Assembly: GCA_031292625.1 (NCBI GenBank)
Contig: JARLGU010000044.1
Coordinates: 1 to 60,665, forward strand
Length of the DNA: 60,665 nucleotides
Direction of reading: 5' to 3'
From: Capsulimonadaceae bacterium
GTDB lineage: Bacteria > Armatimonadota > Armatimonadia > Armatimonadales > Capsulimonadaceae
Both the position numbers and the translations under genes were made by a program. Shown here piece by piece: positions 29,902 through 60,665 of this stretch; within the stretch, counting starts at the first letter, position 1, and each line of letters begins with the position of its first letter. Under the pieces are notes generated by a model that ran no database searches, had not been told where the DNA came from, and saw only the letters and a program-made list of their open reading frames with translations.

Positions 29902-30369
29902 TAAGACGGCTCCCCGGCCGCCGTGGCCGTTTTTGAAAAAGGGCCGTCACAGCCGGTTCACTGCTTCACTCTGTGCGCTGGGATAGGACGCTGGCGACAA
30001 AACGCCGTACGCGTGTTGACGAGGCAACGTAAATCACCGCCGTGAACGAGGCGCGGGCGAGACCGGTCCGTGACCGGCGGACGATGGCGGCAAGAGGCCG
30101 TACGCGTGTTGACGACGCATCGTAAATTACCGCCGTGAACGAGGCGCGGGCAAGACCGGTCCGTGACCGGCGGACGATGGCGGCAAAAGGCCGTACGCGT
30201 GTTGACGTGGCCTTGCCGATTGACGCAGTGAACGAGGCGCGAGCAAGACCGGTCCGTGACCGGCGGACGATGGCGGCAAAAGGCCGTACGCGTGTTGACG
30301 AGGCATCGTCAATCACCGCCGTGAACGAGGCGCGGGCAAAAAAATGCCCCGGCGGCACGAGCCGTCTTG
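29902..30369 (+). repeat. Repeat family B, copy 3, expanded by three 93-bp tandem units (468 bp)
   Basis: The ends are TAAGACGGCTC and GAGCCGTCTTG (10 of 11 complementary). The block starting GAACGAGGCGCG recurs at 30044, 30137, 30230 and 30323, each 93 bp apart, so there are three extra units. The total is 189 + 3 x 93 = 468 bp. The units differ by a few substitutions but have no indels. The element fills most of the 779-base gap between the DUF1015 gene and the next gene; the rest (29749-29901, 30370-30527) shows nothing I recognise. Confidence 0.92.
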
Positions 30370-30527: not shown

Positions 30528-32567
30528 ATGCCGCACTCATCCGTCAGAGAGACCATTGAGCGATTACGGGATGCGCATCCCGGCGCTTCGTTTATTGCGC
30601 TTGGGCAAACCGTCCTTTGGGACGAGCCCATGAAAGCCGTTTGGAGGTCGTTGCTCGACCAGCTTTGGCCGGAAGCGACGCTCATCGCCGGAATCCATGA
30701 TACCGACTACTTCGCGAAAACAACCGCCCTTATAGAAACCGATGCGCCTTACGAGGTGCTGCCCCACAACGACGGAGCAACCCGGGGTCTCTGGAGCGCG
30801 GCCGGCGAATTGTCTGCATTGTTCGGAAGCGAGGATGTCCCGGCAAAGGCCGTCTACGAAAGCTACGGCATCCCATTTGCGCGACTCGCCCGAGCGAGCG
30901 ACAGCGGACGCGGACGGTTCCAGGATGAAGTCACTGAAGCCTGGGGTTGGCGCGGCATCATCGCCACCACGCCAAACCCTCCTATCGCGCACGATGTGCC
31001 GCTAAACGCCTTCGGGCCCGCGTTGCTCGAACAGCTTGATTGGGGCTTCACAAGCAGCCTGGAGCAACTCGGTCGCGACGGACGCGAGGCCTCCCAGGCG
31101 AGCTGTCAGACCATCCTGGACTCCGTGCGCAACTTTATCGGCGACCATGGCCGGGACGGCACCCTGACCGACCTCTACCGATTCCTACTCCCCCGCTTCT
31201 ACGAAACCCTCCTGGGAGCCGAGCCGAAGAACTTTCTGGTTGCTAACTCCGTCGAACTCTTCCGCTTCGATTGCGCAACCTACGATCGCCCACGATTTGC
31301 AGTGCTCGACTTGTTCCTGGATGCCGCGACAAGAGCCCTTTGCGTCGACGCCTATAACCGCGCCGTTGCGGGCGGCGGCATGTACACGTTGGAAACGTTC
31401 GGCGAAGGCGCGCTGCCGTTCGATGTGGTGCTGCCCGGTCACGGACGCGGCACATTGCGGATCGACGGAGACGGCGTACACGTGGAGTGGCGCGGTCAAC
31501 CCCAGAAAATCAGCGGCCCCGAGCCGGTCTGGAATCGCGCAAAGCTCGCGCATCTGCTCGAATGCGAGCTCGGCGACGGCGTCGCCCTGGTCGGCAAGGC
31601 CGTTTCGCTCATCGACATGCTCGCGGGCGAATTCATCGTCGTCTTTCACGAGACAGCCTCGGGCTACACCGCCCGCACGGTCGCGATGAACCAGGTCATC
31701 CGAGCGGCCGGTTTGCCTCTGCAAACGATGCCGATCGTCCGGCTCGCCTACCCGACATGGGATGCGCTCGAAAAGGCCGATGTCGCGACGCCTCTTTTCC
31801 TGCCCGGGCATCTTGCGCGAGCGTTCGGATCGGAAGACGCCCCGCTGCCCGCGAGGGAACTGGGGAAGCGCTGGCGGGAAGTCGTCGTCGCGCAAGAAGC
31901 CGTCCTGCGCGGCGTGCGCGCGCGCAGAAAGCCGCGTGAAACGATGCGTCTGCTTGCTGACGCCGGCGGAACATCGGGAACCGCATGGGCCTCTTTGGCA
32001 AACGAGTACGAGAATATGCAGGCGGCCATCCGGACGAATGCCGCCCGTTGCGCCGACATCAAGATGCGCCTTCGCGCCGTCCGAGCCGCGACGGCGCAGG
32101 ATCGAAAAGCGCTGGTGGAAACCGAAAGGGCAAAGGGCGAAGACTTCCGGACGACGCTCGCAAACCTTATCGAGCGGAGGCGGCTGACAGCCGGCGAAGA
32201 GGCCGCCAAGCTTGACGAACAAATCGCTGCGGAATCTGCTCGACGGGCGTTGGCGTACGATGCAGTCATCGACGGCTGCCGGAACCGGTTGCGCAATGCG
32301 CGATCGGAAAGCAAGCGGCTGCGCAACGATTGCAGGAAGATCGAGCGATCGCAAGAGAACGTGTGGCGTCGCGGGCGGATTAGCGATATCCTGCGGAAGA
32401 CGGAGATGGCGCGGCTCATGCAGGTGCACGATGCGTTCCTGACCGCGCACTCGCTGCCGCACGCCAACGCCCGGCCGTCGTCATGGTGGCTCCCGCTGAT
32501 TGATCCGTCGGGCGCATGGTTTCAGGCGATCGCGGCGGGAACCGAAGCGCGGCTGGAAGAGGTGTAG
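30528..32567 (+). CDS. Large protein of unknown function with C-terminal coiled coil
   Basis: I do not recognise this 679-residue protein. The N-terminal half looks like a globular enzyme-type domain (FIALGQTVLWDEPMKAVW, IAGIHDTDYFAKT, PHNDGATRGLWSAAGEL); the Gln-Thr-Val-Leu-Trp-Asp and His-Asp-Thr-Asp stretches look like possible site residues. Residues about 480-630 are rich in Ala, Arg and Glu and should form a long coiled coil. There is no signal peptide or membrane helix. Codon use matches the neighbours (mostly G/C in third position), so it is a genuine gene. GAAAGAG lies four bases ahead of the ATG. It is isolated from both neighbours. Confidence 0.85.
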   Translation: MPHSSVRETIERLRDAHPGASFIALGQTVLWDEPMKAVWRSLLDQLWPEATLIAGIHDTDYFAKTTALIETDAPYEVLPHNDGATRGLWSAAGELSALFGSEDVPAKAVYESYGIPFARLARASDSGRGRFQDEVTEAWGWRGIIATTPNPPIAHDVPLNAFGPALLEQLDWGFTSSLEQLGRDGREASQASCQTILDSVRNFIGDHGRDGTLTDLYRFLLPRFYETLLGAEPKNFLVANSVELFRFDCATYDRPRFAVLDLFLDAATRALCVDAYNRAVAGGGMYTLETFGEGALPFDVVLPGHGRGTLRIDGDGVHVEWRGQPQKISGPEPVWNRAKLAHLLECELGDGVALVGKAVSLIDMLAGEFIVVFHETASGYTARTVAMNQVIRAAGLPLQTMPIVRLAYPTWDALEKADVATPLFLPGHLARAFGSEDAPLPARELGKRWREVVVAQEAVLRGVRARRKPRETMRLLADAGGTSGTAWASLANEYENMQAAIRTNAARCADIKMRLRAVRAATAQDRKALVETERAKGEDFRTTLANLIERRRLTAGEEAAKLDEQIAAESARRALAYDAVIDGCRNRLRNARSESKRLRNDCRKIERSQENVWRRGRISDILRKTEMARLMQVHDAFLTAHSLPHANARPSSWWLPLIDPSGAWFQAIAAGTEARLEEV

Positions 32568-36471: not shown

Positions 36472-36489
36472 TAAGCGAGCTCGCTTAGT
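36472..36489. repeat. Perfect 18-bp palindrome at the end of the ABC operon
   Basis: CTAAGCGAG is followed directly by CTCGCTTAG, covering the stop codon of the ATPase gene (36485). There is no loop or T-run, so it is not a classic terminator; a protein-binding site or chance are alternatives. Confidence 0.5.
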
Positions 36490-37228
36490 GCCCTTCCTGT
36501 CCGGCCATACCGCCCAGCTGAATGTCGAGGTCCGCGCGGTTTTCGATTTTATCGATTTTGCCGTCGCGAATCCAGATGATACGATCGGAGACGTCGAGCA
36601 TTTTGTAGTCGTGAGTCGCCGAGATGACGGTTACGCCGGACTCCTTGTTGAGCCTGCGGAGAAGCTCGATGATCTCTGTTCCCGTCTTGGAGTCAAGGTT
36701 GCCGGTCGGCTCGTCAGCGAGGATGATGCTCGGGTTGTTTGCGAGGGCTCGAGCGATCGCGACGCGCTGTTGCTGGCCTCCGGAAAGCTCGGACGGTTTG
36801 TGATGCAGGCGGTGTCCGAGACCGACAAGCTCAAGCAACTCGATGCCGCGATCAGTTCCCTCGTCGCTGTTCATACCCGCAAAGATGGTTGGGAGGCGTA
36901 CATTCTCAAGAGCGGTCATAACCGTAATCAGGTTGAACGTCTGGAAAATATAGCCAATCGTGTGGCAGCGAAGGAAGGCAAGTTCATTGGAGTCGAGCTG
37001 CGCCATGTCGACATCGTTGATGAAGACGCTGCCGCTGTCCGGCTTATCCAGACCACCGATCGCGTTGAACAGGGTGGACTTGCCGCTTCCCGACGGCCCC
37101 ATGATCGAGATATACTCGCCTCGTTTAATATCGACGCTGACGCCATTGAGCGCTCTCAGGACCTCTTGGCCCATCTTGAACTCCTTCATGACATCTTTCG
37201 TTCGGACAATGTATTCGGTAGCGGCCAT
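36485..37228 (-). CDS. ABC transporter ATPase, LolD/MacB type
   Basis: A 247-residue ATPase with every expected motif: Walker [11 protein letters not shown]-loop FQTFNLI, signature LSGGQQQR, Walker [14 protein letters not shown], and H-loop SATHD. It belongs to the family that partners FtsX-type permeases (LolD, MacB, FtsE), mechanotransmission rather than substrate translocation through the membrane. AGAGGAG precedes the ATG. It directly follows the small FtsX permease (15 bases) and is the last gene of the six-gene operon that begins with the giant M28-like/FtsX protein. It is the only ATPase there and would have to serve both permeases. Confidence 0.95.
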
Positions 37229-37243
37229 GGAAAAATGCTCCTC

Positions 37244-37873
37244 TCAAACCTCTGTGCGCAACGCCGCGGCGGCAGGCATTGCAGCGGCCCGCTCGGCGGG
37301 CGCGATTGTGGCGATCAGCGTGATCAAAATACCGACGAGTACGCAGCCTCCGGCAAGTTCCGCCGAGTGCGTCGCGCCAACGCTCGCAAACGCTGGACCG
37401 AAGCCGATAGCGCACGCCTTCTGAAATACGGCGCCAACATATCCGAGGAACCAGCCGCCGACCGACGCAGCGCTTCCAACGAATACCGCTTCGACGACGA
37501 AAAGTGAAACGACGAAGCCGTCCGGCGCTCCGAGACACTTCATGGTTCCAATCTCGCGAAACCGCTCGGTGACCGACATCAACATCGAATTGACGATGCC
37601 GACGGTACTGACGAGCAGCGACATGACGACGAGCCAGATCATGCGCGCACGCTGGTCAGCGGTCGCGGCGCCCGACGAGATCAGGTTCGTGGACACATAC
37701 GCAAGAAAGGCGATGCCCAGAATGATGCCCGACGCAGTGACCATCGAGCGCCAAAAGCGAATCTTAAGGCCGTTGATCGCGATCTTCACCACCGTGCTGA
37801 ACGGCAGCCTGATCCGGCTGATGCCCGCGCTTTCGTGCGATGTCTGAACTTGGTCGATATTTGCGGGTGGCAT
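37244..37873 (-). CDS. Minimal FtsX-family permease without periplasmic domain
   Basis: A 209-residue protein with four membrane helices. The first (MVTASGIILGIAFLAYVST) follows the amphipathic ININGLKIRFWRS-type segment of MacB/LolC proteins. The usual periplasmic domain between helices 1 and 2 is reduced to about 15 residues. The FtsX core follows: GIVNSMLMSVTERFREIGTMKCLGA (coupling helix) and APAERAAAMPAAAALRTEV at the end. It looks like half of a LolCE-type pair whose partner is the giant FtsX protein. AAGGG four bases ahead of the ATG supports the start, which makes it overlap the PqqD-like gene by 110 bases in another frame. Confidence 0.85.
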   Translation of the reverse strand: MPPANIDQVQTSHESAGISRIRLPFSTVVKIAINGLKIRFWRSMVTASGIILGIAFLAYVSTNLISSGAATADQRARMIWLVVMSLLVSTVGIVNSMLMSVTERFREIGTMKCLGAPDGFVVSLFVVEAVFVGSAASVGGWFLGYVGAVFQKACAIGFGPAFASVGATHSAELAGGCVLVGILITLIATIAPAERAAAMPAAAALRTEV

Positions 37874-38354
37874 AGAACCCTTTATTTCCTTTCGCTCTCT
37901 CGGTCTTCCGAGGATCGGCGCCCTTATTAATCTCTTCCGATTGCTCCGGCGGCACTCCGACGAGCCGCTTGCCCTGCAACGTATTGAGAAACGCCAGGAC
38001 GGAAACTTCGGCCTGACGCTGCGTCAGCTTGTATTCCTTCGCAATCTGGTTCGCGATTGACGCGACGGTGTGCGCACCGTCGCACAGCTCCCAAACCAGC
38101 GACGAGAGCTCATCGGTCATCTCAATCCGTCGCTCGGTCGGGATTTGAAATATCTTCCCGATCAACTTGTCCCACCGCTTGTACGGATGGTGCGCGAGAG
38201 TCACGACCACCAGGCCAGTTTCCGCCGAACGCTCCCACTTGACGCGCGGGTTCCGGATCGGCCGGAGAACGAGAACCTGCTGCGGCCTTGGCCGCTTGCC
38301 GCTCCCGAAAAACGGGATCGACTGCCGGGCGCGATCTATCAGTCTAGCCAGCAT
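37764..38354 (-). CDS. PqqD-like protein
   Basis: A 196-residue protein with a PqqD-type winged domain at about residues 75-140: MTDELSSLVWELCDGAHTV, ASIANQIAKEYKLT, LNTLQGKRLVGV. PqqD domains bind leader peptides (RiPP recognition elements) for modifying enzymes or transporters. No radical SAM or other peptide-modifying enzyme is near. The last 50 or so residues are charged and low in complexity, and the final third overlaps the start of the small permease gene by 110 bases, so the C-terminus may be dispensable. It also overlaps the upstream 323-residue gene by 11 bases. A peptide-recognition role is inference. Confidence 0.82.
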   Translation of the reverse strand: MLARLIDRARQSIPFFGSGKRPRPQQVLVLRPIRNPRVKWERSAETGLVVVTLAHHPYKRWDKLIGKIFQIPTERRIEMTDELSSLVWELCDGAHTVASIANQIAKEYKLTQRQAEVSVLAFLNTLQGKRLVGVPPEQSEEINKGADPRKTERAKGNKGFYATRKYRPSSDIARKRGHQPDQAAVQHGGEDRDQRP

Positions 38355-39315
38355 GGCACCGCGTCCTATCCGCTATGTCGCGTACCAGCGCCTGCTGGCT
38401 ACTGCGCGAAAAGGTCTGCACGAGATACGCCTTGTTGCTCTCGGGACATTCCCAGAGCAGCGCATCATAATAGGTCGCCGGCATTCGGAACCGGATGAGA
38501 TCGCGAAGGCCGTCCGACAGCCAGTATATAATGCCCCCGCGACGTCCGGTCATGCGCAATGCCGAATGGCCCGCGACTTCATCCTCAATCTTCTCGTAGT
38601 CCACGTTCGCCAGACTGCTGCCTGCCTTGACCGCAAACCACTCATCAAGGTACTGGCCCTTTAGCTGAACATTCGCCAAGCTCCACTGCTCGATCGAAAG
38701 CGTCTCCTCGGCCTTCTCTTGCCGGAACGAAAGCTGCAGGTAGATGTTCATCACCTGCTGACCGCTGAGCGTGTACGTCGCCGGCGCAGACGTTTCCAGA
38801 CCATACAACGCCCAAGATCGCCAGCCGATCTCCGTTCCATGGCAGCCGATCGAATCCAGAATCTGCGTCGCGTGTTCCAAGAATCTCGGTCCACCTCGAC
38901 CGTAAACCTGAACGATTACCACTCGGCCGCAGGTTGCGCAGTACCAAATCCTCCCACTCGCAGCGCTTCCTGCTTTCCAACGAAACGCGAGTTGAGCCGG
39001 TCGCTCCTGTGCGACGTTTTCAACACACTCACCGCTCCACGTCTCAGCGGTCGTTTTCTCCCGCTTCGCCGTCTTCTCAACAGCCGCAAGCAACTCTTTG
39101 AGCCGCTGCCCGATCTGCTGAGCATTCGGCGTCTTCTTCTGCTGCAGCCAACGGACTTCCAGGCCGATCGGGACCGTTTTCGAGTCCGCGCGAGCCGAGT
39201 CCAGCCGCATGCTGCCGGAGCGAGCATCGCCGCCAAATCCCGTCAGCGACCAGTCGGCCGGAACGCTGATCGAAATCCCCTGCCAACCGATCACCTGACT
39301 CGCGTCCTCGACCAC
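38344..39315 (-). CDS. Uncharacterised protein of two similar halves
   Basis: I do not recognise this 323-residue protein. The N-terminal half opens with IGWQGISISVPADWSLTGFG and the second half, about residue 183, with IGWRSWALYGLETSAPATYT. Both continue with a 'Mxx-xxLxL' strand and end in a hydrophobic segment, so it looks like a tandem duplication of a PsbP/Mog1-like alpha-beta domain. There is no signal peptide or membrane helix. It contains a CATCG motif. The start is GTG at 39315 with AAGGAAG nine bases upstream. It overlaps the PqqD-like gene by 11 bases and is clearly part of the operon. Confidence 0.8.
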   Translation of the reverse strand: MVEDASQVIGWQGISISVPADWSLTGFGGDARSGSMRLDSARADSKTVPIGLEVRWLQQKKTPNAQQIGQRLKELLAAVEKTAKREKTTAETWSGECVENVAQERPAQLAFRWKAGSAASGRIWYCATCGRVVIVQVYGRGGPRFLEHATQILDSIGCHGTEIGWRSWALYGLETSAPATYTLSGQQVMNIYLQLSFRQEKAEETLSIEQWSLANVQLKGQYLDEWFAVKAGSSLANVDYEKIEDEVAGHSALRMTGRRGGIIYWLSDGLRDLIRFRMPATYYDALLWECPESNKAYLVQTFSRSSQQALVRDIADRTRCHAG

Positions 39316-39449: not shown

Positions 39450-41498
39450 CTAGAACGGCAGATAGTTAATCGTCTTGGCAATCAATGCCAACGCAATTCC
39501 AAACATGGCGACAAGCCCCGTGCCGCACGCAAAGCCCGCGATTACGACCGGCGCGTACATTTGCCACCGCTCGCGGCCAAGGCGCTTCGCGAAATAGTAC
39601 CGGCTCAACATTGCCCCGATAAACGTCGGGACCGTGTTATGCGGAATATTATTGATGCCGCCCATGAAGCCGTAATAGAACAGAAGCGGCCACTTCAGCA
39701 GTACCGTGATGAAGTAGAGCACCAGTCCAAACAGGCCGCCATAGGCAATAAGCGAAGGCTTCAAAGCCTTGAGGACCCAAGCGCCCTTGCCGCCGACCGC
39801 GTTGATCTGCGTCCAAATCGACGACTGCACGGCGCTCAGAGGCCACATCTTCTGCGCGAAGGGGAACTGGGCCGACGGGATATCCGTCGTGTGCCACAAG
39901 AAGCCCCAGTACAGGAAGGACGTAATTAGGATCAAGGGCAGCATCAGCAACTCAAGCTTGACGATACTCGTGAACTTGGTTCCGGTCAGTTCGATTTCGC
40001 GGAACTTCTGGGCCTGACCGCCGTAGTCGTTCAGCGGCAAAGGAGCGAACCAGATGTCGGGATGCGAATAGCCGCTCTTCAAAACAACAGCCTGATTCAA
40101 GAACGGGAACGTCACGGGCGAGCCCGTCAAACCGACCATACGAGCGGAAATGTACGAGTTCAACGGCGTCCACACCAAGCCGTAGAAGATAATGATGAAG
40201 ATCGGGAATTCCGGCACGAGCTTATGGTTGAGCATCACGTAGAAACACGTCGCACACAACCACGCGCCAATTGCCGCGATCCACGGGAAGTCGCCGCGCG
40301 CCTTGTTGATCGTCGTCAGCGATGCACGTTGGAACTTCTCGGTCGACTTGTTACTGAAAAACAACGCCTTCGCAACGGACGCAAGTCCAACCGCCGCAAT
40401 CGCCAGCTGAATGCCTATTCCAAAGCTCATCCAGAAATCGAAGTTCAACGCAATCTGCGTCGGAATGGTTGTCGAACCTGGACGCCAATCGGGGAAGAAC
40501 CCATGCGCATGCAGGATTGGATTTCCAATCACCTGGAACATGATCGAAGAGATAATCGCTCCCAGCACAATCTGGAACGGCAGGATGAAGCCCATCATCA
40601 GGACGCCAAGATCCGGGTTGTAGCCGACAAGCGCCGTCGGCATGCTACGCTCCGTGGACGGCACGAGGTCGATGAAGGGGATCGGGAACAGCGTCACGGG
40701 CTTTGCCATCACGACGCCTGTAAAGATCGGAATCGCCAGATAGAAGAAGCCCCAAACGAGGCCGATAATCGATCCGACCGAGAAGATCCGCCAGCGCCAG
40801 GACTCTTCCTTGGTGTTCGCTTCCGAAAGAGCGGTCGCACCGGATGCGGCAATCGGCGCCATTGGAAACGGAAGGCGCTCGACGTCGGATGTAATCCGGA
40901 AAAGGATAAAGCCGAGCCCCATCCATTTCATGCGGTCGAAGATCTGATTGCAGATCAGGATGACGACCGGGAGAGCCCATGCCGAATCAAAGAACAGCCG
41001 ATGGATATAGGCGTTGGAACCAAGCGGCGGAGCAATCCATCCTCTCGTCGTCAAATACGGCGCGACGTTGGCCATTGCCGGCGCTTGCATCAGGTATTGG
41101 AGGGCGATAAACGATCCAAACGGTCCGCCGGATATGCCTGGCAAGCCCGCCGAAAAGCCCGTATAGGTCAGCGCGCCCGCCATGTAGTAGATGCAGTAGA
41201 TTTCCTGCTTCTTCAGCGGCATGAACGAACGACGCGCCACCTCGGAAAACAGGACGATCGTGACCCACTGGGACGCTTGTCCGAGCGATGCGCCCGCGAC
41301 GAGGCCGAGGTAGATCGCGCCTGGCATCATGATCAGGCCGACGAAAAAGGCGCCGGCAACGACCTTCCAACTGAAGCCGTCCTCAAACTGAATGCCGCCG
41401 TCATTGGAAGCGCCTTCCGCGCGCTCCCGGGCGGTCTCGATATCATCGAGCTTGCCGCCCGGACCGCCGGGTTTCGTTACTGCTGCATCGATAGCCAA
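39450..41498 (-). CDS. OPT-like polytopic membrane protein
   Basis: A membrane protein of about 682 residues with some 14-16 hydrophobic helices. The order resembles the oligopeptide transporter (OPT) superfamily: GLIMMPGAIYLGLVAGASLG, YYMAGALTYTGFSAGLPG, FPMAPIAASGATALSEA and a late FMGGINNIPHNTVPTFIGAML. DUF6784/DUF6785-type proteins are an alternative name. The cytoplasmic N-terminus is about 50 residues. A TTG at 41498 with AAGGAG eight bases upstream is the best start; the frame extends to a TTG at 41525. It lies between the giant M28-like/FtsX gene and the uncharacterised/PqqD-like genes, which suggests a linked role in peptide or lipid handling. Substrate unknown. Confidence 0.78.
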   Translation of the reverse strand: MAIDAAVTKPGGPGGKLDDIETARERAEGASNDGGIQFEDGFSWKVVAGAFFVGLIMMPGAIYLGLVAGASLGQASQWVTIVLFSEVARRSFMPLKKQEIYCIYYMAGALTYTGFSAGLPGISGGPFGSFIALQYLMQAPAMANVAPYLTTRGWIAPPLGSNAYIHRLFFDSAWALPVVILICNQIFDRMKWMGLGFILFRITSDVERLPFPMAPIAASGATALSEANTKEESWRWRIFSVGSIIGLVWGFFYLAIPIFTGVVMAKPVTLFPIPFIDLVPSTERSMPTALVGYNPDLGVLMMGFILPFQIVLGAIISSIMFQVIGNPILHAHGFFPDWRPGSTTIPTQIALNFDFWMSFGIGIQLAIAAVGLASVAKALFFSNKSTEKFQRASLTTINKARGDFPWIAAIGAWLCATCFYVMLNHKLVPEFPIFIIIFYGLVWTPLNSYISARMVGLTGSPVTFPFLNQAVVLKSGYSHPDIWFAPLPLNDYGGQAQKFREIELTGTKFTSIVKLELLMLPLILITSFLYWGFLWHTTDIPSAQFPFAQKMWPLSAVQSSIWTQINAVGGKGAWVLKALKPSLIAYGGLFGLVLYFITVLLKWPLLFYYGFMGGINNIPHNTVPTFIGAMLSRYYFAKRLGRERWQMYAPVVIAGFACGTGLVAMFGIALALIAKTINYLPF

Positions 41499-41566
41499 TC
41501 GTCTAACTCCTTGGCGCGCATCCAAAATAGCTCATGGGGAACGGCGCGCCTGATGATAAGATCGTA

Positions 41567-44500
41567 CTACAGTGCCGGGGCCAACTCCGACGCCTGTCCG
41601 GCGCCATCCGCGCTGTGAGTTGCCGAGAAATAGCGCTCGCGCTGCTCAGCGGAGAGCGTGCGCCAGATCAAGAACTGCCTTCGCACCACGTTCAGGAACC
41701 GGCGATTCACGCGCTTCCAGTTGGAGACGTCGCCTGAAAGCCGATGAAGATCGATCCGCACCTCGAAGACGTCTTCGAGAGCTGTCGGAACGGTCTGCAG
41801 GTTGATGGTCTGCGAGACGCCAAGGTCAAACGGCGCGAGCCAGACCCTGGCCTTCAGCTCCCACTTTTCGCCAAACTCGCTCTGGCATGTGGAAACCTCA
41901 ACATCCTGAACAAGGAAGTCGCCGACGCTCTGCTCGACATACGACTGCAGCCACTCCGCTAGGTAGCCGTTGATACCCACTGCCTGGTTCCCCGTAATCG
42001 CGAACGGCAGCGAAATGCTCCACTCGTCGCCGTCAGGCTCAGGAAGCCTCCATACGCGGTCTACGGCCGGGGTTGCAACTTCAGACGCCTTGCGCGCCGG
42101 ATAGAGCGTGGAAAGCAGGACGACAGCGCCGACGGATGCGGTTGCCAGCATTGCGGAGGTCGACGAGAAGTTCAGGTACAACCCCGGCAGAATGCCGAAC
42201 GTCGTAATGATCTTGGAGAGACCCTGGCCGATCAAATAACCGGACACCGCGCCGATTACCGCATATACCAGCGACTCCGCGATAAAGAGCATGGCGATGT
42301 TGCCCGGAGTGAGTCCGATACTTGAGAAGATCGCAATTTCCTTGACGCGCTCGAAGACTGAGCCCAGCATCGTATTGAGAACGATCAGCGCGGCGATCAG
42401 CAACGGGACGACGACCGTGCCCATGTCCTTGCCGGCGGTCGAGTTGATAGCCGAGAAGCGGTAGTTCTTGTCGAGACCGGCGTACAGGTTCAGGTCGAGC
42501 CGCGGCATCAAATCCATGAGCTCTTTTTCCGCCAAGACGGGGCTCTTGAAGTTGACCGCCACCGACTCGAGCTTGCCGCCGATATTCATCAGCGTCTCGT
42601 ACGGTACGTAGATCACCTGCTGCGGATCGATATGCAGATACTCCTGGAAGCCGGCCTGATCGCCGCCGGAGCCATTGGCATTGGCGGACGCGGATGCTTG
42701 CGTGGCCTGGAAATCCGCCGGGCTGAGCGGCTCGTTGTCCAAGTCCTTCGTATCCTTGAGCTTGGAGCCGTCGATGATGCCAATCACTAAATAGTCTTGA
42801 CCGCTAAATGTCACCGATGCCTTGCCGACATCTTCCGTGGTCAGTCCCAACGATGTCGCAAGACCATCCGGCAGGATCGTCGTATAGACATCCCCCGGCT
42901 GGAACCAACGGCCGGCAATCAGATCCTCTTGCGGATGCGTAATCGTCGCCTCGGTCGGCTGAAAGCCCGTGACGCCCTTGATGTCAAGCACCTTGTCGCC
43001 GCTCTTCACCGTGGTTGCCTGGAACCAGGCGCGCGCGGCAACTGGGTAGGCGCTGCCGAACTTGTCGCGAAGCAGCGTATAAGCAGGCGCTTGCAGAGGA
43101 TCCCAGTTCGCCGTACGAAGCAGAATGCCATGGTAGCGCGTCGATCCCGGCGCGGCGACCTTGTTGTAGCGGATCGCGTTGACGATGGACGTGAACGACA
43201 GGACGGTGAACGTCAGCAAAACAAGAGTGATGCACGTCAACACCGTACGCGCTTTGCGACGCCGCATGTTTGAGATGCCCAGGGAGAAGGCGGCAAAAGC
43301 GACGCCCGCCGTTCCGACATCGATCTTGTGGACGCCAGTCGTCGCCTTGTTGATCTGCTGCATCTGGTCCTCGAACTTGCCCCAGACCATCAGCGAAACC
43401 AAAAGCGAGAGGGCCATCATAATGAAGGCGATCAGGACGATGCCCGGATTGATCGTGATGTCGAACGCCGGGTGTATCTGAGAGAAGACCATGAAGATAA
43501 CGAGGAAGATCCCCATTACCCACATCAACTGTTTCTTCAGATCCGGAGCGGCCACAAAGAGGCGCTCAATGAAGAACGCAAACGGGATCATCAAGAACAG
43601 GTAAAACAGAACGCCCTGGACGACGTCGGCCGCCGTCTGCTGAGCGCGCGGATAAACGCGGGATTCCAGGCCCCACGCAGAGCGCGAGTCCGAATCAAAC
43701 GACGCATACTGTAGGTTGTCGAGTTCCTGCTTGGCGCGCGTGAGCAGCTCGCCAGCCTTGTTATGGATCGCGTCCATCTCGTGATCTACGATGCGGTACT
43801 TGCGAAGCTGGCGAATGCGGAAGTCGTCCAGCGTCCACATGTCGCTCGCGACGCGCATCGGCGTGTCGGTTACGACGCCGTCTACGACGAAGTTCGGCGG
43901 ATTGAACGGATCCTTGGGGTTGGCGACATTGTAGCCATAACCTTCGGCAGCGGCACGGATCTTATCCTTGCCGCCCTCGAGCATCGTGCGCGAATTGAGC
44001 AACAAGAAGCGGGTGGCGACTGGGCCAGAACTCATCAGCACCTTGATGCGCGTGTTCAAATCCGTAAAGAGAACGGCAACGTCTTCGACGTAACTTGACT
44101 GAACCGACTGCGTCGACAACGCATAGCCGTACTGGCGCGGGACACCGTTGGTTGCGCCGTCGATGATCTGAATGCCGGTAAGGGTCATCAGGTTCGACTG
44201 GTCTACCAGGTCGAACACGGTAGTCGGAATACACTTGAAGACAATCACCTGGACGCTATTCGTAACGCCCGTCATGCTCAGTTCAACAGGATACTGCGTC
44301 GCGCCGTTAGGACCGAGGTCGGGAGCAAAGTCGATCTGCCCTCGGGTCGTCGGCGTCGTGGCGTGCAAAACGTCATCAGGCGTCGGCAGTCCGTCGCTAA
44401 TCCGGTACGCATCGACATGGAACTGATTGCCGCCAACTAGGCTTCCAAACCCTCCGGCATTTGCCGTTAGGAGCGGCAGTCCGACAAAGTGGAACTTGGT

Positions 44501-46282
44501 GCCTTCGGGCTGTGCAATCCAGTTGCCGCGCACTCCGGTGAACGTTTTGCGCGGGCAGCGAACAACCGCGAGCGCGCCGGTCGGGATCGGCTTGTTGGGC
44601 ACGAAGCTGCTGGTCGGGTCGAAAATCAGCGCGTTGCCGGTAAGCGACGAGAAGCCCATTCGCAAACCCTGGCGGGTCCAGCGCGGATAATCCTTGACCG
44701 GCATCACGCCAGCCTTGGAACCTGACGGAAGCGAGTCTGGATCGTTGGTGTCGTTGAAAAGGTGCCAGTATTCGCATGCGAGCAACGTCGTCTGCTCGGC
44801 GACATTGGCGATATTGATATTATCGGGCGTGTCCGCGGGAGTATCGACGCGCTGGCGATTGTCATCCGTCGTAGCGAGTTCGATCGCCTTGCCGCCCGCG
44901 AGGTTGGCCGCCTCGGCGTCGAACGCAAACGAACCAGGCAGGTAGTCCTGCCACTTCTTGCCGCCGACCGGGTTGATGCCGTCGGCGAACCGCGCGGTGG
45001 GATCAAAGCCAAGAGCCGTGCCGATCTTAGCGGCATTGTCGCGCATTGAGCGGCCGATATCTGAAAAATCGGACTGAATGTCTTCTCGATAGTTGTAGTA
45101 GTTGGCCTTGTAGAAAACGCCAAACTGTGAGGACTGGCTGGACAGATCGAGACCGGTAAACAGATAAACCTGCTGCCGGTGCGGCAAGGATCCACCGTGC
45201 GCGGCGTAAAACTTATCCCAGCCAGAAAGCGGCAGCCACTGGTCGACATGCTTATCGATGTATTCGCGCACGCCCTGCAGTCCCAGGAAGTGACCGTCGG
45301 TTGCCACGAAGACCACGGTGCGCTTGGGGCGGTCCTGCGCGAAGAGGCGGGCGAGTTCAAGCATCGAGGCGACGCCGGTTGCGGCCTCCGCCCCCGGAGC
45401 AATGGCCGGGACGACCGACATCGAATCGTAGTAGGACTCGACGATCACGATCTGCTTGCGTAGAACGGGATCGGTTCCAGGAAGGACGCCGATAATGTTG
45501 GTAGCCTTTGCGACCCTCCATGGCTGGTTGCAATCCACGGCGGCGACGGCATGCGGGGTCGTCAGGGCTTGCGCTTCGAGAGCGGCGGCATCGCGACGGC
45601 TCACCCAAAAACGGGGAATGGACACGGGAACGGCAACGAACTTGGATTCGGCCTCGCCGCGCATCGGCTCGTCAGGTTCCGCAAACAAAATCGCCTTCGC
45701 GCCAAGACGGGCAGGATTGAGCCACTTCGTCCCGCTGTTAAAGTCCATCAGGACGACGCTGCCGGCGACCTGCTTGCCGTTAAAGTTGATCAGATCGCCT
45801 TGACCGCCGTAAATCAGCGAGCCCTTAATGCCGCCGATCGGCAAAGTGGACGTGCGCACCAGGTTAGGCCACAGCGGATTGATCCGGTACGACTGACCGT
45901 TCACCTTGATCGTGGAGCGATTGTCATCGACAGGCACGGTGGCGTCGAACTGCTCAGTCCTGACGGCGCCTCCCGCGGGAGCAAGCAACGCGCCAAGGCG
46001 AGAGGCGACATAGTCACGCGCCTTGTCGTTGCCCGGATAGCCGACGACGCGGCTGCCAAGCGCTGAAAGGTAAGTGATTGTCGACGACAAGCCTCGTGCA
46101 TCGACATCCTTAGCCAACAGCCGGTACTGCGCCTGCGCATTCTGCGTATAGGCGTCGAGCTTTGCGGCTACGGGCGCGGGAGCGGCACTCTGAGGCGCGG
46201 CGTGCGAAGTGCCAATGGCAAACAGCGCAGACGCGAGCATCAAAACGACCGCGAGACGGAATCCGGCAATGGACATTCTCAT
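41567..46282 (-). CDS. Giant fusion: signal peptide, degenerate M28 peptidase domain, FtsX permease
   Basis: A 1571-residue protein. Residues 1-29 are a signal peptide (LAVVLMLASALFAIGTSHA). Residues about 60-350 resemble an M28 aminopeptidase with a PA-like insert, but the zinc-site motifs are altered: GAHYDS is ESYYDS (282-287), PGADDN is PGAEAA (296-301) and GGEELG is DGHFLG (329-334). A long extracytoplasmic beta-rich part follows to about 900, then three or so membrane helices. Next is a complete FtsX unit (SNMRRRKARTVLTCITLVLL to YPARKASEV) with its own large periplasmic loop. The last 130 residues are a soluble cytoplasmic tail (EWSISLPFAITGNQ). It heads the six-gene operon ending with the LolD-type ATPase. 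It probably pairs with the minimal permease as the substrate-facing half of an exporter. Confidence 0.85.
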   Translation of the reverse strand: MRMSIAGFRLAVVLMLASALFAIGTSHAAPQSAAPAPVAAKLDAYTQNAQAQYRLLAKDVDARGLSSTITYLSALGSRVVGYPGNDKARDYVASRLGALLAPAGGAVRTEQFDATVPVDDNRSTIKVNGQSYRINPLWPNLVRTSTLPIGGIKGSLIYGGQGDLINFNGKQVAGSVVLMDFNSGTKWLNPARLGAKAILFAEPDEPMRGEAESKFVAVPVSIPRFWVSRRDAAALEAQALTTPHAVAAVDCNQPWRVAKATNIIGVLPGTDPVLRKQIVIVESYYDSMSVVPAIAPGAEAATGVASMLELARLFAQDRPKRTVVFVATDGHFLGLQGVREYIDKHVDQWLPLSGWDKFYAAHGGSLPHRQQVYLFTGLDLSSQSSQFGVFYKANYYNYREDIQSDFSDIGRSMRDNAAKIGTALGFDPTARFADGINPVGGKKWQDYLPGSFAFDAEAANLAGGKAIELATTDDNRQRVDTPADTPDNINIANVAEQTTLLACEYWHLFNDTNDPDSLPSGSKAGVMPVKDYPRWTRQGLRMGFSSLTGNALIFDPTSSFVPNKPIPTGALAVVRCPRKTFTGVRGNWIAQPEGTKFHFVGLPLLTANAGGFGSLVGGNQFHVDAYRISDGLPTPDDVLHATTPTTRGQIDFAPDLGPNGATQYPVELSMTGVTNSVQVIVFKCIPTTVFDLVDQSNLMTLTGIQIIDGATNGVPRQYGYALSTQSVQSSYVEDVAVLFTDLNTRIKVLMSSGPVATRFLLLNSRTMLEGGKDKIRAAAEGYGYNVANPKDPFNPPNFVVDGVVTDTPMRVASDMWTLDDFRIRQLRKYRIVDHEMDAIHNKAGELLTRAKQELDNLQYASFDSDSRSAWGLESRVYPRAQQTAADVVQGVLFYLFLMIPFAFFIERLFVAAPDLKKQLMWVMGIFLVIFMVFSQIHPAFDITINPGIVLIAFIMMALSLLVSLMVWGKFEDQMQQINKATTGVHKIDVGTAGVAFAAFSLGISNMRRRKARTVLTCITLVLLTFTVLSFTSIVNAIRYNKVAAPGSTRYHGILLRTANWDPLQAPAYTLLRDKFGSAYPVAARAWFQATTVKSGDKVLDIKGVTGFQPTEATITHPQEDLIAGRWFQPGDVYTTILPDGLATSLGLTTEDVGKASVTFSGQDYLVIGIIDGSKLKDTKDLDNEPLSPADFQATQASASANANGSGGDQAGFQEYLHIDPQQVIYVPYETLMNIGGKLESVAVNFKSPVLAEKELMDLMPRLDLNLYAGLDKNYRFSAINSTAGKDMGTVVVPLLIAALIVLNTMLGSVFERVKEIAIFSSIGLTPGNIAMLFIAESLVYAVIGAVSGYLIGQGLSKIITTFGILPGLYLNFSSTSAMLATASVGAVVLLSTLYPARKASEVATPAVDRVWRLPEPDGDEWSISLPFAITGNQAVGINGYLAEWLQSYVEQSVGDFLVQDVEVSTCQSEFGEKWELKARVWLAPFDLGVSQTINLQTVPTALEDVFEVRIDLHRLSGDVSNWKRVNRRFLNVVRRQFLIWRTLSAEQRERYFSATHSADGAGQASELAPAL

Positions 46283-59996: not shown

Positions 59997-60072
59997 AAGA
60001 CGAGGCAGGATGCCCAGTGGCCGGCCTTGCCGCTTTTCTTCTCAGCATCTGCAAAATAATCGAAAGGCATTG

Positions 60073-60261
60073 CAAGACGGCTCCCCGGCCGCCGTGGCCG
60101 TTTTTGGGAAAGGGCCGTCACACCGCATTCACAGCTTCCCGATACGCGCTGCAATCGGCCGTAGCAGGCAAAGCGCCGTACGCGTGTTGACGCCGCCTTA
60201 CCGATCGCCGCCGTGAACGAGGCGCGAGCAAAAAAGTGCCCCGGCGGCACGAGCCGTCTTG
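60073..60261 (+). repeat. Repeat family B, copy 4 (189 bp)
   Basis: Ends CAAGACGGCTC and GAGCCGTCTTG are perfectly complementary over 11 bp. The left flank AATCGAAAGGCATTG is shared with copy 5. It is nearly identical to copy 5, so this pair is recent. Confidence 0.93.
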
Positions 60262-60315
60262 AATCTTGTACTCGCAGCGCCGATTAAACTACCCCCTTAG
60301 AATCGAAAGGCATTG

Positions 60316-60504
60316 CAAGACGGCTCCCCGGCCGCCGTGGCCGTTTTTGGAAAAGGGCCGTCACACCGCATTCACAGCTTCCCGATACGCGCTGCAATCG
60401 GCCGTAGCAGGCAAAGCGCCGTACGCGTGTTGACGCCGCCTTGCCGATCGCCGCCGTGAACGCGGCGCGGACAAAAAAGTGCCCCGGCGGCACGAGCCGT
60501 CTTG
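60316..60504 (+). repeat. Repeat family B, copy 5 (189 bp)
   Basis: Same length and ends as copy 4, which starts 243 bases earlier; only scattered substitutions separate them. The right flank AATCTTGTACTCGCAACGCC is also shared. Confidence 0.93.
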
Positions 60505-60576
60505 AATCTTGTACTCGCAACGCCGATCAATGACGTATGCTCTTCGCCGCATCTGCAAAATCATCGAGATCGGTTG

Positions 60577-60665
60577 CAAGACGGCACCCCGGCCGCCGTT
60601 GCCGTTTTTGGAAAAGGGCCGTCAGACCGAATTCACAGCTTCCCGATACGCGCTGCAATTGGCCG
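60577..60665 (+). repeat. Repeat family B, copy 6 (cut by the window edge)
   Basis: It starts CAAGACGGCAC, one mismatch from copy 5, with the landmark GTTTTTGGAAAAGGGCCGTC, and runs off the end. Together with copies 4 and 5 it forms a tandem-like array of about 250-base spacing. Confidence 0.85.

Follow-up and report, generated by a model that had tools for sequence, protein, structure and literature searches.

Has the peptidase M28 region of a large ABC permease from an uncultured armatimonad lost an active site, retained one in disguise, or exchanged it for something else? The window (the whole 60,665-nucleotide stretch of DNA analysed here) encodes this permease, hereafter referred to as M28P, on its reverse strand. 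According to a sequence-only reading of this DNA, an M28 domain within positions 45235-45450 had lost its zinc-binding and catalytic residues, its fold apparently being reused as a binding domain. The central element of that reading, an M28 fold without its canonical di-zinc site on an FtsX-type ABC permease, was borne out by AlphaFold2 modelling, profile searches, alignment and Pfam. The main features of the protein are as follows.

41567..46282, reverse strand: open reading frame of M28P, the large permease, 1571 amino acids
44693..46150, reverse strand: M28-like domain with a PA-type insert, approximately residues 45-530 (AlphaFold2, VIA-align, profile)
42083..42412, reverse strand: FtsX permease C-terminal domain, residues 1291-1400 (PF02687, E 6.2e-13, above the curated cut-off)

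Pfam and hydropathy analyses gave a layout of signal peptide, M28-like ectodomain, beta-rich domain (about residues 530-880), about three transmembrane helices, FtsX permease and cytosolic tail. The ectodomain, preceded by the signal peptide, extends to about residue 880, and the cluster of about three helices comes next. In the FtsX part, hydropathy placed TM1 at about residues 1010-1038 and TM2-4 at 1283-1396, followed by a tail of about 170 residues. The sequence matched MacB, LolC and YtrF. An FtsX C-terminal domain with TM2-4, an upstream transmembrane helix and an ATPase partner with intact motifs encoded nearby together identify M28P, at the sequence level, as the large permease of a type VII (MacB/Lol-like) ABC system. 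The Peptidase_M28 match (residues 262-345, E 1.2e-12) also lies above the curated Pfam cut-off, and such proteins are therefore at risk of being wrongly annotated as peptidases.

The model of residues 30-880 had a mean pLDDT of 91.4. Overlaid on an M28 aminopeptidase, the check proposed in the sequence-only reading, it displayed the alpha/beta fold typical of M28, with correctly ordered motifs (VIA-align against 1amp, the Aeromonas enzyme: Z 31.8, rmsd 2.4 Å, 274/291 residues). A profile built from 41 ectodomains of the family retrieved the PA-containing aminopeptidase 2ek8, with an alignment spanning the PA insert (E 1.4e-23), and YwaD/BSAP (6hc6; E 7.8e-20), followed by the Aeromonas aminopeptidase, nicalin and the transferrin receptor, the last of which was also recovered by a fold search with the M28P model. 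We regard as firm the model-based claim that the ectodomain keeps the M28 fold. M28P shares its fold, motif order and the residues equivalent to Asp99 and Asp179 with the M28 aminopeptidases of Aeromonas/Vibrio (1amp) and Aneurinibacillus (2ek8) and with BSAP/YwaD (6hc6), and has the PA-type insert in common with 2ek8 and 6hc6, but differs from these enzymes in the replacement of His97, Glu151, Glu152 and His256 and in its fusion to an ABC permease. The transferrin receptor and nicalin have an M28-like fold without peptidase use; unlike M28P, they are eukaryotic and lie outside ABC transporters.

To locate the site, 115 cores of the family were aligned with 16 M28 paralogues from the armatimonad's own phylum, most of which keep the ligands (H-x-D, G-A-[DN]-D/N-x-x-G, E-E, D or E, and H-x-x-x-D). 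Residues were counted in 96 non-redundant representatives (<90% identity) from at least two phyla. The positions concerned, all on the reverse strand, are listed with their equivalents in the Aeromonas enzyme.

45431..45433, reverse strand: Tyr284, in place of zinc ligand His97 (Tyr 76, Phe 16, Asn 2, His 1, Ser 1 of 96)
45425..45427, reverse strand: Asp286, in place of Asp99 (Asp 96/96)
45386..45388, reverse strand: Glu299, in place of bridging Asp117 (Glu 70, Asp 17, Thr 5, Ser 3, Gly 1; 87/96 acidic)
45290..45292, reverse strand: His331, in place of the catalytic base Glu151 (His 96/96, and 139/139 sequences covering the column)
45287..45289, reverse strand: Phe332, in place of zinc ligand Glu152 (Phe 72, His 8, Tyr 6, Cys 5, others 5; Glu 0/96)
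45146..45148, reverse strand: Asp379, the retained zinc ligand Asp179, in LDLSS (Asp 93, Glu 3 of 96)
44843..44845, reverse strand: Asp480, in place of zinc ligand His256 (Asp 94, Asn 1, Glu 1 of 96)

Three of the five zinc ligands and the catalytic glutamate are thus absent from essentially all 96 representatives, and two new residues are fixed. Among the five ligand positions (His, Asp, Glu, Asp, His), only that of Asp379 keeps its original residue almost without exception; aromatic residues predominate at the His97 and Glu152 places, and Asp480 aligns with the histidine of 2ek8 and 6hc6, such that HTPxDT becomes DTPxDT. No catalytic glutamate was found at the Glu151 place, and His331, which occupies it throughout, is the sole invariant histidine of the M28 part. 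R476 and D484 (96/96 each) and D474 (95/96, with one Glu) are also fixed. None of the HExxH, HxxEH and HxH zinc motifs occurs in M28P, and no family member with an intact site was identified among about 140 M28-FtsX sequences from Armatimonadota and other groups. By alignment, then, the canonical di-zinc site is lost.

The motifs and numbering given in the sequence-only reading for Y284, PGAEAA (296-301), H331 and F332 agreed with the translation and Pfam, but two of its details require amendment. The aspartate of PGADDN was described as missing: the sequence does differ, but alignment with active M28 paralogues shows a loop shorter by one residue, with Glu299 in the bridging-Asp column (GA-ESACG versus GADDNASG). 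Similarly, the statement that only the aspartate of YDS was retained holds inside 45235-45450, but the ligand Asp179 is kept, as D379, beyond that interval. The orthologue alignment suggested there for assessing the conservation of the replaced residues gave 96/96 for H331, 96/96 for D286 and 94/96 for D480; given its occurrence in all 139 sequences covering the column, H331 is no chance substitution. The proposed reuse of a protease fold stands insofar as the canonical site is gone, but mere loss is not an adequate description: the (near-)invariance of H331 and D480, together with that of the retained D286 and D379, across distant relatives indicates that the pocket has been rebuilt and kept under selection. 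On this comparative evidence, the change is a replacement under selection rather than decay.

The substitution at the catalytic position has a laboratory counterpart. PDB entry 2anp is the Glu151-to-His form of the Aeromonas aminopeptidase and its title calls the mutant functional, the term also reportedly used in the title of the 2005 article by Bzymek et al. (doi 10.1021/bi0505823). A histidine at this place is therefore not in itself proof of inactivity. The M28P family has naturally acquired the same replacement, but lacks three metal ligands of the Aeromonas enzyme, and the missing ligands constitute a stronger argument for inactivity than His331.

The same residues recur in frames of mostly 1500-2000 amino acids in dozens of independent genomes. 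When the N-terminal part of M28P was used as the query, matches at E 0.001, which include ordinary M28 peptidases, were obtained in 55 of the phylum's 61 genomes; about 40 of the 61 contain long orthologues (E < ~1e-60), and nearly all of the 40 orthologues fetched were of full size. The single M28P protein, used as a query against genome contigs, gave no match; an alignment query of the GTDB 220 contigs gave 499 relatives, 80 of which were kept, mostly Armatimonadota by record title. In a second phylum, the family was found in 30 of 35 genomes. The GenBank titles of the metagenome-assembled genomes concerned disagree and are unreliable: loci L140, L142, L151 and L153 are titled Omnitrophota, TA06 or Vermiphilus yet belong to one phylum. 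In a midpoint-rooted tree, the M28P family grouped in a single clade, to the exclusion of the 16 M28 paralogues (support 0.995), which is consistent with the site change having arisen once. The conversion of a protease to a non-protease would have been fixed over phylum-scale distances, inside an ABC permease, with a site rebuilt rather than decayed. Some genomes carry at least two copies of the large permease (L067 and L068 in G054; L063 and L065 in G041), which may have different substrates.

The M28P gene heads an operon, the remaining genes of which, all on the same strand, are given in order.

39450..41525, reverse strand: OPT/yellow-stripe-fold transporter, 691 amino acids (AlphaFold2 pLDDT 86.2, structural match to YS1, Pfam match within the family)
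38344..39315, reverse strand: soluble protein of 323 amino acids, encoded right after the OPT gene and conserved in the operon
37764..38354, reverse strand: PqqD-domain protein (PF05402, E 1.7e-11)
37244..37873, reverse strand: short FtsX permease (PF02687, E 2.4e-16; 202-280 amino acids in 53 relatives)
36485..37228, reverse strand: LolD/YbbA-like ABC ATPase (TIGR02211, E 1e-70, under the cut-off of that equivalog)

This order was complete in 47 of 120 loci, as judged by homology to the window's proteins and with two locus sets that partly overlap. Many of the remaining loci end at the edge of a contig or region and others display the M28P-OPT pair only; for many distant relatives, this pair alone was seen within the region read. 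The model of the 691-residue protein has a predicted OPT/YSL fold, matching barley YS1 (7wsr/7wst) with a Z of 21.0 and an rmsd of 4.2 over about 548 residues, the next unrelated match having a Z of 3.8; identity to 7wst is 12-13%. The window's protein matched neither PF03169 (OPT) nor other Pfam models, and PF03169 was matched by 6 of 51 family members (best E 1e-10). The Walker A, signature and Walker B motifs of the ATPase were found in 48/48 orthologues. The 323-residue protein, which gave no usable match in Pfam or the PDB, contains a Cys-x-x-Cys pair that is conserved, and most orthologues also have a terminal Cys-His; neither a transmembrane helix nor a signal peptide was seen. The PqqD domain, a peptide-carrier fold in RiPP pathways, lies here in a transport operon, with no evident RiPP gene among the neighbours inspected.

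An FtsX-type permease domain and a LolD/YbbA-like ATPase are common to this system and to MacAB, LolCDE, FtsEX and YbbAP-TesA. It is unlike them in its huge fused pseudo-peptidase ectodomain, its extra transmembrane helices, its OPT-type neighbour and a partner permease devoid of a periplasmic domain. In the short FtsX protein, merely about 18 residues separate TM1 (about 40-62) from TM2 (about 81-99), and a pair formed with M28P would therefore be lopsided, with a giant head on one side and none on the other. In Armatimonadota and one further phylum, the operon sets an ABC mechanotransmission system beside an OPT/yellow-stripe-fold transporter. Although an inactive M28 domain is of an already known kind, this conserved operon, and the M28P system as a whole, are apparently undescribed: neither an M28-FtsX fusion nor this armatimonad system was found in the literature searched, which comprised open-licence works only and does not prove absence.

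What, then, does the domain do? Because the zinc site is replaced by the same set of residues throughout the relatives, within a conserved transport operon, the role of a domain with the M28 fold is here probably to bind or relay something, not to cut it. The role of binding domain put forward in the sequence-only reading is plausible by analogy, and the operon with its OPT-fold transporter provides it with a context that was absent from that reading. In type VII ABC systems, ATP hydrolysis drives periplasmic movement. The explanation we favour, and consider somewhat probable, is that the M28-like domain is a pseudo-peptidase acting as the extracytoplasmic binding or relay head of a type VII ABC system serving the OPT transporter. 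By analogy with LolCDE, the large and short FtsX chains would pair with the ATPase, and ATP hydrolysis would set the M28-like head in motion through the mechanotransmission known from MacB, FtsEX and YbbAP. In the former active-site cleft, this head would bind a peptide, or a chelate resembling one, with no cutting, and would present this ligand to the OPT-type transporter, or gate the latter. We infer the assembly, ligand, coupling and direction of transport in this scheme, together with the metal state and transport function of the system; the link between the OPT protein and M28P would follow from gene order only. A type VII ABC transporter joined to a hydrolase has been described for YbbAP-TesA (PMC12646458).

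The same fixed residues could be read otherwise. The domain might bind no small ligand and serve purely as a scaffold for the OPT protein, for the beta-rich domain or for another copy of itself, its polar cluster being a buried salt-bridge staple in place of zinc. The His-Asp and Arg-Asp pairs among H331, D379, D480, R476 (96/96) and D474 (95/96) resemble such a metal-free staple, M28-fold non-enzymes, such as the transferrin receptor, are known to act as protein-binding scaffolds, and nothing specific counted against this explanation, which we nevertheless consider rather unlikely. Slightly less probable in our estimation is a remodelled site in which H331, D379 and D480, mostly with E299, coordinate one metal or make up a novel catalytic centre, the domain then being an enzyme or metal sensor of a new type. 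The (near) fixation of these three residues in the 96 representatives, with H331 the only invariant histidine of the M28 part, and the title of the E151H entry, 2anp, favour such a site, but the ligands H97, E152 and H256 are absent and E299 is replaced by Thr, Ser or Gly in 9 of 96. A fuller version, in which the M28 site has been rebuilt into a His/Asp/Asp centre (H331, D379, D480) for a metal or another reaction, in a type VII ABC-driven, OPT-coupled machine possibly handling peptides or metal chelates in at least two phyla, must be considered more doubtful still. That the domain is an active M28 peptidase whose ligands are unusual is very improbable: D379 is present and position 299 is mostly acidic, but three of five ligands are gone (one His at the His97 place, no Glu at the Glu152 place and no His at the His256 place in the 96 representatives) and M28P contains neither HExxH nor any other of the common zinc motifs. 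A degenerating gene or an assembly artefact, for which no support was found, is refuted by the orthologues, with their long frames and identical residues in dozens of independent genomes, and can for practical purposes be set aside.

Two tandem arrays were also observed in the window. The first, at 29986-30339, has a 93-base period and 3.8 copies with 88% matches, and lies just upstream of an open reading frame (30528-32567) that is BshC-like by eye. The second, at 60058-60665, consists of 2.4 copies of a 243-base unit and reaches the end of the contig.
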